The position numbers and the translations under genes are program-made. Below are positions 22,173-41,466 of a DNA stretch of 64,000 nucleotides, one piece after another. How positions within the stretch are numbered: position 1 is the first letter of the stretch; each line of letters starts with the position of its first letter. The notes beneath the pieces were generated by a model. That model was not told where the DNA came from, searched no databases, and saw nothing but the letters and a program-made list of their open reading frames with translations. Source of the DNA: Alkalihalophilus pseudofirmus (GTDB lineage Bacteria > Bacillota > Bacilli > Bacillales > Bacillaceae_D); assembly GCF_029094545.1 (NCBI RefSeq), contig NZ_CP117835.1, positions 2,336,001-2,400,000 on the forward strand, given 5' to 3'.

Positions 22173-22380
22173 GTCATCATCCTCCAACTAATAAAATCCG
22201 TGTCATCTCCTAGTAAACATATCTATATCGTAGACAAATAGAGGGATTTTGTAAAGATAGTCAGAATTATATAACGATTACTGTTCCTATAAAGCTTCTC
22301 CATTTTTGTGTGCATTTCCTTGTGATACAATCATAACTATGGTGGATAATGGTAAACCTAATAAAAAAGGAGTGATCGTA

Positions 22381-24168
22381 TTGAGCACATATTCTTCTCG
22401 CAAAGAGGTACCAGAACACGAAAAATGGGATGTTTCCGATATTTACTCTTCTTTAGATGAATGGAGAGAAGATGTAGCAGCCATTGAAGAAATGACAGTA
22501 AAGCTTAAAGAGTTTGATGGAAAGATTGAGGATGGACATTCCTTGTACGATTTTTTATCAATGCAGGAAAAACTAAGCTTTCATTTATCTAAAGTGGTCG
22601 TCTATGCCAGACTTCAAGTAGATGTTGATACTCGCGATAAGAAGGCTGAATCCTTACTTGATGAAGCGACTCAACTAAGTGTAAAAGCAAGTACTGCAGT
22701 CTCTTTTTTCAGACCTTTCATCTTAAGTCTTGATAAGTCCACCCTTCAAGAATACATATCAGAAGTAGAAGGGCTGACTTATTTTGAAGACGATTTAATG
22801 GATCTGTATCGCTATAAGCCCCATGTCTTAAGTAAAGAAAAAGAAGAGGTGTTAACTCAGCTCGGCGAAGCCCTGTCCTCTCCTAGTAAAACCTTTGGCA
22901 TGATTAATAATGCAGATATTAAATTCGGTCTAGTGACAAAAGATGATGGCGAGAAAGTAGAATTAACGCGCGGCATGTATGAAAAACTGCTTAAAAACGA
23001 AGACCGCAACAAGCGAAAAGAAGCGTATCATGCGTATTACAAGCCTTATGTGGAGCTGAATAATACAATTGCTTCAACCCTGTCATCAGCCATTAAAACA
23101 AATGTCACCGTCTCTAAAATGAAGAATTATCCGTCAGCACTTGAAAAATCACTGTTTGCCGATCAAGTTCCAAAAGAAGTGTATGATAAGCTGATTGAAG
23201 CAACGAAAAATCACCTTGCGCCTTACCACCGCTATCAAAAGATTAGAAAAGAAATGCTCGGTGTGGATGAACTCCGTCAGTACGATTTATCCATTCCGCT
23301 AGTTAAAGGTGTAGATAAGGATATACCTTACGATGAAGCATATGATTTAATGCTTAAAGCCTTGGCTCCGCTTGGCGAGGAGTATGTAGAGACTTTAGCT
23401 GAATTTAAAGACAAACGCTACATTGATGTCCGTGAAACGCCAGGCAAACGTTCAGGCGCTTATAATATGGGGCTGTATGGGGTTCACCCATTCGTACTCC
23501 TTAACCATCAAGATAATTTAAACAGCTTATTTACACTCGCCCATGAAATGGGTCACGCAATGCACAGCTACCTGTCAGCGAAGCATCAGCCGCAAATCAC
23601 AGCCGGCTATACGATCTTCGTCGCCGAAGTTGCATCAACAGTAAATGAAGTGTTACTCATTCATTACTTACTCAACCAATCGACAGACGATAAAACAAGA
23701 AAATATTTAGTGAATGATTTTATTGACAAGTTTAAAGGCACGTTCTTCACTCAAGTAATGTTTGCGAACTTCGAAAAGGATACTCACGAGTTAGCAGAAG
23801 CCGGCAAGCCGCTTACTGCTGAGGTGTTTAATGAGGTATATGAGCAGTTGTTCCGTGAATACAACGGACCTGATATGGTATTTGATGAGGAAGTAAAATA
23901 CGGATGGTCTAGAATTCCGCATTTCTACCGCCCATTCTACGTGTATAAGTACGCTACAGGATTCGCAGCGGCTATTCAACTAGCCAACGGTCTCTTAGAA
24001 AATAAAGAAGGTGCAAAAGAAGCGTACCTTGAATTCCTGCAAAGCGGAAGTTCTGATTATCCGCTTGAGCTGCTTAAAAAGGCCGGTGTAGATTTAACGA
24101 CATCTGAGCCAATCGAGAAAGCCTTAGCATTCTTTACGGAGTTAGTCGATGAATTTGAAGGAAAATAG
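22381..24168 (+). CDS. pepF: oligoendopeptidase F
   Basis: 595 residues from the TTG at 22381, with AAAAAAGGAG upstream; longer starts lack a ribosome site. M3-family zinc peptidase with LAHEMGHAMHS (HExxH, first His about residue 388) and the third ligand in FVAEVASTVNE. It degrades short peptides of roughly 7-17 residues in the cytosol; there is no signal peptide. A strong terminator follows. A spacer of ~190 bases separates it from the divergent HemD-like gene. Confidence 0.95.
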   Translation: MSTYSSRKEVPEHEKWDVSDIYSSLDEWREDVAAIEEMTVKLKEFDGKIEDGHSLYDFLSMQEKLSFHLSKVVVYARLQVDVDTRDKKAESLLDEATQLSVKASTAVSFFRPFILSLDKSTLQEYISEVEGLTYFEDDLMDLYRYKPHVLSKEKEEVLTQLGEALSSPSKTFGMINNADIKFGLVTKDDGEKVELTRGMYEKLLKNEDRNKRKEAYHAYYKPYVELNNTIASTLSSAIKTNVTVSKMKNYPSALEKSLFADQVPKEVYDKLIEATKNHLAPYHRYQKIRKEMLGVDELRQYDLSIPLVKGVDKDIPYDEAYDLMLKALAPLGEEYVETLAEFKDKRYIDVRETPGKRSGAYNMGLYGVHPFVLLNHQDNLNSLFTLAHEMGHAMHSYLSAKHQPQITAGYTIFVAEVASTVNEVLLIHYLLNQSTDDKTRKYLVNDFIDKFKGTFFTQVMFANFEKDTHELAEAGKPLTAEVFNEVYEQLFREYNGPDMVFDEEVKYGWSRIPHFYRPFYVYKYATGFAAAIQLANGLLENKEGAKEAYLEFLQSGSSDYPLELLKKAGVDLTTSEPIEKALAFFTELVDEFEGK

Positions 24169-24203
24169 AAAAAGGTTTGCCCGATTTGGGCAAACCTTTT
24201 TTT
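24169..24203 (+). terminator. pepF terminator
   Basis: 14-bp perfect stem (AAAAAGGTTTGCCC and its complement ending TTTTT), 5-base loop, T7 tail. Confidence 0.93.
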
Positions 24204-24206
24204 GGT

Positions 24207-24365
24207 GAGACACGCATAGTTTAGATTGACGCAATTATGTGGTGAAGCGGCGCAATATGAACATGAACAGACGCAATCAGACGCTGCATGGACGCATTTC
24301 CTCTGAACCAGCGCATATAGCAGCCGGAGCGACGCATTTACCGACCGAACTGACGCTATATTGCC
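24207..24365. repeat. degenerate ~21-bp periodic array with GACGCA core
   Basis: GACGCA-like cores occur at 24228, 24249 (GGCGCA), 24270, 24291, 24310 (AGCGCA), 24331 and 24352 (GACGCT), that is, at steps of 21, 21, 21, 19, 21 and 21 bases, each followed by A/T-rich bases. The rest of each unit is not conserved. No ORF runs through it. A similar array in the opposite orientation is at 40411-40560. Confidence 0.75.
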
Positions 24366-24425
24366 TTAAATCCGCTCAATAAAGCTCCACAATGAAGCAA
24401 TCTCTATACCACACTGCACCTCATA

Positions 24426-38598: not shown

Positions 38599-38835
38599 TT
38601 TGCTTTCCTCCCAGTTCTTAATGATTCAGGTTACAGTTGAGTTGCGTACATCTAAATACTTGGATATGTATTACTCCATTATAACGTTATTATTCGACTT
38701 TTTCCATCTGTCATTTTATTCAAAATAAGTCTTCCTTCCTGCAGGAAAACAATAAAAAAAGGTTAATAGAGTAAGTACTCAGTGCATATATTCACTTCTG
38801 TGCAGTTCATTATTATTAATACAAGGAGGTTATGC

Positions 38836-40347
38836 ATGATTAAACACGTGTTGTTGATTCTTCTGCTTATTGTTATGTTAGTCAGTCCCATCCAAGTCCA
38901 CGCTGGATCGTTTGGCGACAAAGGGACTCCAGGCGTTCCGGGCCAGTGGTATATTGGAGAATCACCTGAGAGTATTAATCCGACAAAAGCGCCGCTTATA
39001 TTTATCCATGGGCTAAACAGCTCCTCTCGCACATGGTGGGAAGGAAATGACATGTATCAAGTCGCTCTGCAAGATGGATATGAAACAGCTTTTGTTGACC
39101 TTCACGGAACGGAAGATATGTGGACAAACGGCGCACTGCTTGCTGCGAAGCTGGCTGAAATTCATCAGCATTTCGGCAAAGATCTTGTCTTAGTCACACA
39201 TAGTAAAGGCGGGATTGATACTCAATCGGCCTTAGTTCATCATGGTGCTCATGCCTATGTTTCAAATGTGATCACATTATCGACCCCGCATTATGGCTCA
39301 CAGCTGGCTGATTTAGCTTATAGCAGCTGGGCAGGATGGCTAGCCGGCATTATAGGAGGAAGAAATGCAGCAACGAACTCTCTCCAAACGGGATACATGG
39401 CATTTTTCAGGAGTGAAACCGACCATCACCCTAACGCCAGAATCAACCCTTTCTTTACACTGGCAGGAACAAGCTGGGGGTCATTCGGTTCATCCCTTTA
39501 CTGGGGCGGTGTATATTTAAGCTCATACGGTCAAAATGATGGAGCCGTAACAGTAGCTAATTCTAGACTTCCATACTCAAGAGAACTTGCCGTCGGACGC
39601 TGGAATCATACAACAGTTAAAGAAGGTCATGCGACATTCACGACATTTAAGCCTTATCTTACATCTGAGAAATCGCTGTTTTCAATGACTGCAAACGAAA
39701 ACATTCAAAGTAACCAAGAAGCAAGCAGCCAAATTGTACGCGGCGGCCCTCTTCAAGCCTTTGGTAAAACGGATTCCTTTCATATTGAAGAAGACGTCAC
39801 CTCCGTCACCATTGATTTCTTAAGTGATGAGCACTTTTCTGCTGCTACATTGCACGGACCAAGTGGTGAAGTTATCCCTGCTAATATCTCCTATTCAAAT
39901 GACGAAATTTTTGAAGGCGCTTACCATCATTTATACAAGCTAAATCAGCCATCACCAGGAGAATGGCATATTCAAACGAATCATGCAAAAGGCAGCGCCT
40001 ACTTAGTAACAGCATCAATTGACAGCCCTTATGATCAAGCGGTGACACTTGAAATAACAGGTACCGCTAAGCAGAAAATAGCTATTAAAGATAACCTCCA
40101 GCCTCCACCGTCCAAGAAAACAACCTATCGTGCAGAAGCAACCTATACAGATAAACACGGCAAACAGAAAAGCCGCAGCGTTCCAGTTACAATCAACTCA
40201 GCAGGCGAATTGTCCATTCCTCTAAAGAAAGAAGGCATCTATACGCTTACGATTGACATGGAAAGCGAAACGAAAAAAGGCTACCCTTTCGAGCGAACGT
40301 TGATAAAGAGCGTCTATGTGGATCAAAACGGCAAGCTATATGAGTAG
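38836..40347 (+). CDS. secreted alpha/beta-hydrolase, lipase-like
   Basis: 503 residues from the ATG at 38836 (AAGGAGG upstream). A signal peptide of ~21 residues (IKHVLLILLLIVMLVSPIQVHA) ends in AxA-type cleavage. Lipase features: oxyanion HGLNSSSR, nucleophile Ser in THSKGG (about residue 123), and a likely catalytic His in GHATF near 273. The C-terminal ~220 residues hold two beta domains (HFSAATLHGPSGEVIPAN; VTLEITGTAKQKIAI) as in extracellular lipases with accessory domains. It probably hydrolyses esters or lipids outside the cell. Confidence 0.88.
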   Translation: MIKHVLLILLLIVMLVSPIQVHAGSFGDKGTPGVPGQWYIGESPESINPTKAPLIFIHGLNSSSRTWWEGNDMYQVALQDGYETAFVDLHGTEDMWTNGALLAAKLAEIHQHFGKDLVLVTHSKGGIDTQSALVHHGAHAYVSNVITLSTPHYGSQLADLAYSSWAGWLAGIIGGRNAATNSLQTGYMAFFRSETDHHPNARINPFFTLAGTSWGSFGSSLYWGGVYLSSYGQNDGAVTVANSRLPYSRELAVGRWNHTTVKEGHATFTTFKPYLTSEKSLFSMTANENIQSNQEASSQIVRGGPLQAFGKTDSFHIEEDVTSVTIDFLSDEHFSAATLHGPSGEVIPANISYSNDEIFEGAYHHLYKLNQPSPGEWHIQTNHAKGSAYLVTASIDSPYDQAVTLEITGTAKQKIAIKDNLQPPPSKKTTYRAEATYTDKHGKQKSRSVPVTINSAGELSIPLKKEGIYTLTIDMESETKKGYPFERTLIKSVYVDQNGKLYE

Positions 40348-40410
40348 AGGATGCTGCTAGTACCCGGTACCTGAAGCAATCATCTATTATATTTTTTCAG
40401 CCTCTTTATG

Positions 40411-40560
40411 GCGTCAGTCAGTAAGGGAATTGCGGGGATTGCTCTAAGGATAGCGCCAGTTGAAATAGTAATTGCGTCAATTTGCAGTTAATGTGCCGAT
40501 TCAGCAAATATATGGATTAATGTAAAGCTGAATTGTATTAATTCACAGGTTTATTGCGTA
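40411..40560. repeat. degenerate 21-bp periodic array with GCGTCA core
   Basis: Cores at 40411 (GCGTCA), 40432 (GCGGGG), 40453 (GCGCCA), 40474 (GCGTCA) and 40495 (GCCGAT) are exactly 21 bases apart, with faded units at 40516 and 40537 and a last GCGTAA at 40556. Several units follow the core with TTG or CAGT and end in AAT(T). It is the inverse complement of the GACGCA core at 24207-24365, so both belong to one repeat class. Confidence 0.72.
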
Positions 40561-40579
40561 AATTCTCATCACACATGAA

Positions 40580-40612
40580 AGAGCTGTCCACTTCTTAATA
40601 GCGGACAGCTCT
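40580..40612 (-). terminator. terminator of the HtrA-like gene
   Basis: 10-bp stem AGAGCTGTCC / GGACAGCTCT with a 13-base loop. It lies just after the leftward stop at 40615; the T tail is weak. Confidence 0.65.
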
Positions 40613-40614
40613 CT

Positions 40615-41466
40615 TTATTCATTTAAATACTCTGCAAATCTTGTTTTCACTTTTTCAATTGGAACTGCCAGTCCTCTTGAAGGTTCTTCATCAAACAAAC
40701 CAGGAACCGTTCTCGCATATACAACTCCAATGACTTCACCAGCTTCTGTCAGTACAGGACTTCCGCTGTGACCTCCATAGATTGGTGCAGAAATTCGTAA
40801 AATCTCAAAGCCTTCTTGTTGATCTAAGATTTCTCCTTCATTAACAATTTGCTGCTGGGTAAGCGGGTTTCCGATAACTAGAATTCGCTCATCACGCTCT
40901 GCCCCTACATCACTTAACGGCAAATATGGGAGCCCCTCCGCCTCAATTTCAAGCAGCGCTAGATCCAGCCCTTCATCAGAATCAACGATCTCTGCTACAT
41001 ACTGCTCACCAGAAGGTAACGTGACAGCTAATGGTCCTCCGCCATCGACAACATGATCATTAGACACAATAAGACCCTCGCTTGATACGATAAAACCAGT
41101 GCCGCGTGACTGCTGGTTCTGGATCAGAACGACTGATTCCATGCTGTTTTGTACCATCTCATCCTCTGAATATTGTTCCGTTCCACGAAGGAGCTTAAGG
41201 GAATCTAAACTAAACACATTCAGCCAGATGCTTAGCACATTGACTACTAATAATAAACTGATGCCTATAGCAATCGATCGAATGATAAACTGTTTTCTTT
41301 TGCGTTTCTGTTCAAGCAGCTCAGGATCTTCCTCTTCTGCTTCATCAAATAAGAAATCTTCTAGCGGTGGTTCTCCGTAAGGATCTTCCTTAGTATTATT
41401 TTCCATTATGTCTTTATCTAATTGATCATTTTTTGTTTCATCTGAATCATCTCGGTGCCTAGACAC
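40615..41466 (-). CDS. membrane-anchored trypsin-like serine protease (HtrA/S1C type without PDZ)
   Basis: 283 residues. An acidic cytosolic N-tail of ~75 residues precedes one membrane helix (IIRSIAIGISLLLVVNVLSI, about 81-100). The protease domain outside has the catalytic triad His in SNDHVVDGGG, Asp in DEGLDLALLE and Ser in YGGHSGSPVL. There is no PDZ domain, unlike HtrA/DegP, so it is closer to short HtrA-like or YdgD-like proteases. The GTG start at 41466 has GGGGG 12-13 bases upstream, rather far. It is 18 bases after pncA, probably co-transcribed. Confidence 0.88.
   Translation of the reverse strand: MSRHRDDSDETKNDQLDKDIMENNTKEDPYGEPPLEDFLFDEAEEEDPELLEQKRKRKQFIIRSIAIGISLLLVVNVLSIWLNVFSLDSLKLLRGTEQYSEDEMVQNSMESVVLIQNQQSRGTGFIVSSEGLIVSNDHVVDGGGPLAVTLPSGEQYVAEIVDSDEGLDLALLEIEAEGLPYLPLSDVGAERDERILVIGNPLTQQQIVNEGEILDQQEGFEILRISAPIYGGHSGSPVLTEAGEVIGVVYARTVPGLFDEEPSRGLAVPIEKVKTRFAEYLNE

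Follow-up and report, generated by a model that had tools for sequence, protein, structure and literature searches.

Positions 40,411 to 40,560 of the window, the whole 64,000-nucleotide stretch of Alkalihalophilus pseudofirmus DNA that was analysed (C1:2336001-2400000 of a 4.24 Mb genome in two contigs), carry short GCGTCA-like cores that return every 21 bp, and the complementary core returns with the same period at 24.2 kb. The question raised by this locus is what kind of element these arrays are and what a core repeated at two helical turns between genes could be for. The two arrays are copies of one dispersed non-coding element of roughly 180 bases.

The array at 40.4 kb (array 2, 40386..40570, + strand) is a complete element of nine units, each consisting of about ATTGCGTCNNTTCA and a variable spacer, set at 21 bp steps save for one conserved 19-bp step. 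A degenerate U1 (TATATTTTTTCAG, 40388..40400; the consensus of 15 copies is TTGTATCNTTTCAG) is followed by U2 (TGGCGTCAGTCAG, 40409..40421), U3 (TTGCGGGGATTGC, 40430..40442), U4 (TAGCGCCAGTTGA, 40451..40463) and U5 (TTGCGTCAATTTG, 40472..40484). The 19-bp step, placed from the aligned family loci, leads to U6 (ATGTGCCGATTCA, 40491..40503; register from the family alignment), then to a poor, degenerate U7 (ATGGATTAATGTA, 40512..40524), to U8 (TTGTATTAATTCA, 40533..40545), which is the TTGTAT unit variant of the consensus, and to U9 (TTGCGTAAATTCT, 40554..40566) at the terminator-facing end, all on the + strand. The original prediction had read five GCGTCA-like cores 21 bp apart, at 40411, 40432, 40453, 40474 and 40495, with faded units behind them. 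The register holds, although exact GCGTCA is present only at 40411 and 40474 (2/5); with the sequence set out in 21-base rows the six bases at 40432, 40453 and 40495 are GCGGGG, GCGCCA and GCCGAT. The fifth core was misplaced, as the family alignment puts the 19-bp step after 40472 and the sixth unit, ATGTGCCGATTCA, begins at 40491. The faded units are real (U7 at 40512, U8 at 40533 and U9 at 40554), and one further unit, U1 at 40388, lies upstream of those seen earlier. Tandem Repeats Finder, run at a score of 30, reports neither window array and the spacers are variable, so neither is a simple tandem repeat in which adjacent copies are alike along the entire unit.

The gene to the left of array 2, an ORF for an alpha/beta hydrolase (PGAP1-like; 38782..40347, + strand; Pfam PF07819, E 7.2e-6), ends towards the array and is convergent with an ORF for a trypsin-like protease (40615..41466, - strand; Pfam PF13365, E 6.2e-30). 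A terminator-like hairpin (AGAGCTGTCC...GGACAGCTCT, 40580..40612; copy L018 in the U9-side hairpin scan) separates U9 from the end of the leftward gene. The array at 24.2 kb (array 1, 24223..24402, - strand) faces the end of an oligoendopeptidase F-like (M3) gene (22306..24168, + strand; ORF, Pfam PF01432, E 8.5e-76), whose terminator-like hairpin, found by eye at 24171..24199, lies beside the U9 end of the array. Both arrays occupy gene-end spacers as had been claimed, and both sit between convergent genes, where one had been read as following a rightward gene.

A sequence-only profile, R1, was built from 15 copies with both window arrays left out. It recovers array 2 (G000:C1:2376386-2376565, E 2.1e-21, 77.3 bits; the match spans 40386-40565 of the element) and array 1 (G000:C1:2360223-2360402, E 3.0e-17), which bears out the view that the pair is unlikely to be due to chance. 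Array 1 belongs to the same family on the other strand, in agreement with the reading of the same core in inverse orientation 16 kb away. The two arrays are not independent of each other, as had been supposed, both being copies of one family with a common unit order.

The original prediction depended on further arrays of this core and period elsewhere in the genome, and these are plentiful: R1 gives 94 matches at E ≤ 1 and 81 at E < 1e-6 (two of the 81 are parts of one array; 13/94 have E above 1e-6). The simpler pattern GCGTCA-N15-GCGTCA, with at most one mismatch, has 30 matches in the genome against 8 with a reversed control, and it was on reading the loci from this two-core search that the common unit order was seen. 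An ungapped alignment of 21 loci gives the layout U1 AATTGTAT, U2 TTTATGCGTC, U3 ATTGCGC, U4 ATTGCGTC, U5 ATTGCGTC, a 19-bp step, U6 ATTGCGTCAGTTCA, U7 ATATGCGTC, U8 AATTGTAT and U9 ATTGCGCC. All other steps are 21 bp, the spacers of 6-8 bp are weakly conserved (21-locus alignment; 15-copy consensus), and some copies do not have every unit in its layout form. Among 40 non-training copies, 375/386 core pairs 10-70 bp apart fall at 19, 21, 40, 42, 61 or 63 bp, a count that is partly conditioned, the copies having been picked by the profile. Another dispersed repeat, which is about TCTAGCTTCRGCTCCTTGCCCTGCGGG but shorter at L161, was seen by eye beside several elements (L373, L161, L165, L186, L220), and at L373 (near C1:3336500) it stands in tandem.

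The closest relatives share the family. A. pseudofirmus OF4 (G060), which differs from our genome by about 3.6% in the aligned far flanks, has 90 matches at E ≤ 0.01, by eye largely collinear with ours, and A. marmarensis (G001) has at least 45 (44 candidates scored). No copies were found by the profile search in a further genome of the genus, G002 (best E 0.04). A two-unit pattern scan of a named genome collection returned 24 stretches: nine in OF4, six in A. marmarensis DSM 21297, single array-like matches in Bacillus sp. BHET2, Aquibacillus kalidii and B. massilionigeriensis, and six in unrelated bacteria, two of which were read and show no array. The second contig of our genome (C2, 157,838 bp) has none of the 94 matches, about three being expected by length. 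An orthologue of the protease at 40.6 kb is present in 34/40 genomes, and no array was visible by eye behind it outside our genome in the 26 loci read out of 30 fetched, two of which (L290, L301) are cut short or misplaced at a contig end and say little. The A. marmarensis counterpart of array 2 (L223) lies at the end of another contig.

The element is dispersed in many copies, mostly at intergenic gene ends. Genes were called by a simple longest-ORF rule, and 67 of the 81 matches with E < 1e-6 have a called gene on both sides (14/81 have none on one or both): 35 lie in tandem spacers, 28 in convergent and 4 in divergent ones. As 18 sampled stretches of 20 kb have 46 convergent gene pairs and 43 divergent ones, the element prefers convergent to divergent spacers (Fisher p 3e-4). 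A hairpin with an A/T run is found within 170 bp on the U9 side of 38/64 copies (median distance 25 bp) and on the U1 side of 16/64; 64 of the 81 copies were scored, by a scan that misses several hairpins visible by eye. The U9 end tends to face the gene end. By eye, the U9-side hairpins in our genome (e.g. 40580-40612) often contain the words AGCTGYCC/GGRCAGCT.

Whether orientation relates to neighbouring genes or to replication, a question raised along with the original prediction, has an answer for this genome. The element points against the genes in 28/35 tandem spacers (binomial p 5e-4), and its GCGTC strand is the lagging strand in 54/81 copies (p 0.004). For the latter count the terminus was set at 1.87 Mb: sampled GC skew has positive values as far as 1.76 Mb and negative ones beyond 1.96 Mb, which puts the terminus in the interval and the origin close to the ends of the contig. 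The lagging-strand bias may just follow gene direction, since genes prefer the leading strand.

Comparison of orthologous sites indicates which parts of the element are held. In 33 pairs between our genome and A. marmarensis, 166/2495 core positions are substituted (6.7%) against 212/1296 spacer positions (16.4%; Fisher p 4e-20), and the flanks differ by 9.7% within 60 bp and by 4.5% further out. In 20 pairs with OF4 the figures are 82/1430 (5.7%) for cores and 78/744 (10.5%) for spacers (p 9e-5). These rates count only copies that fit the profile without gaps; one of 21 OF4 pairs was dropped for low cover, and other candidate pairs were left out as paralogues or for want of coordinates in the table. 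Indels are about six-fold rarer in the A. marmarensis elements than in their 80-bp flanks (17 in 5941 bp against 96 in 5280 bp, p 1e-16), and in OF4 there are 8 in 3605 bp of element against 28 in 3200 bp of flank (p 3e-4). A pair entered the base and indel comparisons only if the profile had found both of its copies, so these comparisons favour intact copies. By size, 12 of the 17 A. marmarensis indels are of 1 bp (some paired as +1/-1), two form a +2/-2 pair, and the rest are longer, namely -21 and 51+12=63. Counted by eye, the copy next to L373 in our genome shows a loss of 82 bp (19+63) when compared with OF4 L154. Two of the eight OF4 indels, +15 and +10 bp near the U9 end, are not unit-sized and count against a phasing model. 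Given the core/spacer and indel contrasts, the spacers drift while the cores and their helical spacing are held; core bases and helical spacing look to be under selection. A single copy is dispensable, because our L370 has lost the whole element, which OF4 and A. marmarensis keep, with the printed adjoining gene ends intact.

A role of the transcript finds no support in the alignment fold, the folds of both strands or Rfam. In the 15 copies 0/15 predicted pairs show a compensatory change and the consensus fold has -4.15 kcal/mol; array 2 folds unremarkably on both strands (z -1.6 and -0.1), and on the opposite strand of 40 copies no core-pair distance recurs within 8-90 bp. At the gathering score Rfam has no match at the arrays; its sole match elsewhere in the window is a T-box leader (RF00230, 59674-59926 (-), 129.2 bits). 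The two-turn period, the rare indels, the lack of RNA covariation and the unremarkable folds point to double-stranded DNA read from one face. Of 13 periods tried, 10.25-10.5 bp gives the largest predicted roll amplitude in each of four lineages (39/81 of our copies, 15 of G223, 9 of G081 and 13 of G038), with mean z at 10.5 bp of 2.5, 3.8, 4.1 and 5.8 against dinucleotide shuffles, and in-phase bending is therefore predicted; the roll values were entered by hand, and any 21-bp repeat has some power at 10.5 bp.

Arrays of the same period with TTWTGYG-like cores are spread patchily in the Bacilli. An exact TTWTGYG-N14-TTWTGYG census of 299 genomes of the order finds a clear excess, defined as 10 or more matches and no fewer than 5x the reversed control (limits chosen once the counts were known), in 15 genomes belonging to 8 families, for example 200 matches against 2 in G038, 86 against 1 in G042, 85 against 2 in G295 and 42 against 0 in G223. 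Of 299 genomes drawn from the phylum, only G491 falls within these limits (13 against 1). Our genome itself gives 1 match against 1 for the control, which shows that the census misses arrays built on other cores. When any gap of 5 to 30 bases is allowed, most of the listed G223 and G081 matches keep the 21-bp step, and among core pairs 8-36 bp apart in the fetched loci 38/44 (G223), 34/39 (G081), 134/157 (G038) and 12/16 (G491) lie at 21. G491 has an ordered element of its own, by eye of about five units and ending near TTATGGAAACTAATT in most of 11 loci; by eye, G044, G033 and G037 also carry arrays with other cores. Convergent, tandem and divergent contexts number 6/9/0 in G223, 6/9/0 in G081 and 5/11/1 in G038 (one not called). 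Higher-order amplified arrays, whose units (roughly 80-104 bp) are each built from subunits of about 21 bp, were seen by eye at G112:C13:115378-116005, G295:C1:285944-286906 and L364 and L367 (G491). The profile also picked up periodic repeats in apparent coding regions at L062 (G041) and L068 (G032), by eye probably coding repeats. The arrays of other Bacilli may share ancestry with the Alkalihalophilus element or may have a separate origin.

We infer, with a probability of about 0.5, that the element works at the level of DNA, as a helix-phased array to which a protein that bends or wraps DNA binds, and that it acts as an architectural boundary at gene ends. What was observed, and forms the basis of this reading, is the family of copies, their unit order, their mostly gene-end placement, the constraint on cores and spacing at the sites compared, the lack of RNA covariation and the related-looking arrays elsewhere. 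Nine direct cores of roughly 13 bp would lie on one face of the helix (21 bp being two turns, with one fixed 19-bp step), typically just beyond a gene's terminator. A putative sequence-specific DNA-bending or DNA-wrapping protein would fill the array cooperatively, and the compact bent complex would form the boundary; at the junctions of transcription units it would retain or take up supercoils, and it would also hinder read-through. Base sequence and helical spacing both appear selected here, in non-coding DNA past terminators, and further Bacilli families have the two-turn period on different cores. Should a protein fill the arrays, bacterial chromosomes would have in them a ready-made series of positioned sites, nucleosome-like or boundary-forming. 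With about 80 copies per genome in culturable alkaliphiles, what separates neighbouring transcription units can be tested directly.

Some features of the distribution count against a boundary. The orientation rule is not common to G223 and G081; the ratio of opposite to same orientation in tandem spacers is 4:5 and 2:7 in these genomes and 8:3 in G038. The matches are clustered: in our genome a gap of 960 kb (G000:C1:2376565-3336345, 2.376-3.336 Mb) is free of matches with E < 1e-6, where the largest gap in 20,000 random placements is 666 kb, and OF4 has a similar gap at 2.10-3.10 Mb. Sampled stretches inside the gap contain convergent pairs and spacers over 150 bp, so that missing sites do not fully explain it, and it is not explained by a general gene-end function. 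As to a binder, the obvious candidate was RemA, for which wrapping of DNA at AT-rich direct repeats has been proposed in B. subtilis (PMC8481266). A RemA-like protein was found in 16/17 genomes searched, the sole negative being the array-bearing G491, and it is present in eight genomes in which our searches showed no arrays; RemA is an unlikely common binder. A broader and distinctly speculative proposal, which we think improbable, is that in several lineages of Bacilli the arrays are positioned wrapping sites of an unrecognised bacterial chromatin system, whose binding protein would co-evolve with the lineage-specific core while the period stays fixed. If true, it would mean tens of chromosomal arrays per lineage, with a core exactly every two helical turns, at gene ends.

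The same evidence must be weighed against other explanations. The common unit order implies copying, few of the matches lie in divergent spacers, none was found in G002 of the same genus and a single copy can be lost, all of which would suit a selfish or defunct MITE-like mobile repeat without host function, one that multiplied in the clade's ancestor and keeps away from promoters. We consider this unlikely, though a real contender: neither terminal inverted repeats nor coding capacity were seen by eye in the copies read, many copies occupy places that are orthologous between three genomes, the spacers diverge around conserved cores and a conserved spacing, which is not expected of a dead repeat, and the same period occurs with other cores in other families. 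The one empty site compared (our L370) looks like a loss, the element being in both relatives. Slippage, a neutral tandem duplication with a favoured two-turn period, would account for the unit-sized losses and gains and for the higher-order amplified arrays of some lineages (G112, G295). It deserves hardly any credence, given that neighbouring units have unlike spacers, that the identity of each unit is position-specific and common to aligned copies, and that indels are rarer than in the flanks.

The frequent terminator-like hairpins beside the element (38/64 on the U9 side, 16/64 on the U1 side) would fit an extended terminator, an RNA stabiliser or a small RNA, but most tandem copies read against the gene, the constraint tracks the DNA helical repeat, and the structure tests (0/15 compensatory pairs, unremarkable fold z, no Rfam match at the arrays) give it no help; an RNA-level element is very unlikely. 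Transcription could be affected in another way. The elemental pause of RNA polymerase has the consensus T-3 G-2 Y-1 G+1, NusG-dependent pausing involves T-rich non-template DNA, and the TGYG of the core with T-rich non-template DNA before it could form a series of pause sites; TGYG is indeed the common core in several lineages, though it is also part of the search pattern. Against this, U6 and U9 have no conserved G at -10 in our own family, U1 and U8 are mostly TTGTAT and lack the G at +1, pausing would not be expected to have a 21-bp period, and the strand relative to genes differs between lineages, so that we give pausing little weight. Direct repeats two helical turns apart also recall iterons, and chromosomal decoys could titrate the replication initiator of a plasmid or phage. 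Such decoys appear highly improbable, as three array queries have 0 matches in 72,556 plasmid records, one query has 0 matches in 50,697 phage records and none of our 94 matches lies on C2, although BLAST may miss arrays that are degenerate.

No published description of such arrays was found in the open-licence literature on repeats or on the organism (titles and starts of abstracts; subscription journals lie mostly outside it). Because no described match was found there and the palindromic feature of REPs is absent, we rate the kind of element as new in architecture, with a reservation for the subscription literature. Dispersed non-coding repeats of bacteria are usually palindromes or remnants of mobile elements, and the REP/BIME repeats of enterobacteria lie at intergenic gene ends. 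Like the element, REP/BIME and the GTAG/CGTC-tagged REPs are dispersed, non-coding and present in many copies per genome, and the CGTC tag resembles the GCGTC of our core by letters; REPs are palindromes of 20-40 bp, and CGTC repeats are reported from Proteobacteria, Chlorobi, Bacteroidetes, Spirochaetes and Thermotogae (PMC3733652). The element is unlike them in having direct units only, a fixed 21-bp helical period and a length of about 180 bp. The palindromic stem-loop that defines REP/BIME repeats is lacking in it, with no compensatory pairs in 15 copies and no opposite-strand core periodicity in 40. Plasmid iterons are direct repeats near 21-22 bp, or about two helical turns, and are alike in this; an iteron array belongs to a replication origin with its initiator gene, whereas the element is dispersed on the chromosome, mostly at gene ends, with none on C2 and no plasmid match to three queries. 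The bcr repeats of the Bacillus cereus group, of about 150 bp, are likewise dispersed and intergenic in Bacillaceae, and are not known to be helix-phased arrays of direct units. RemA binding regions are also AT-rich direct repeats near the helical period; they differ in that they precede promoters and consist of protected regions of 7 bp separated by 3 bp (PMC8481266).
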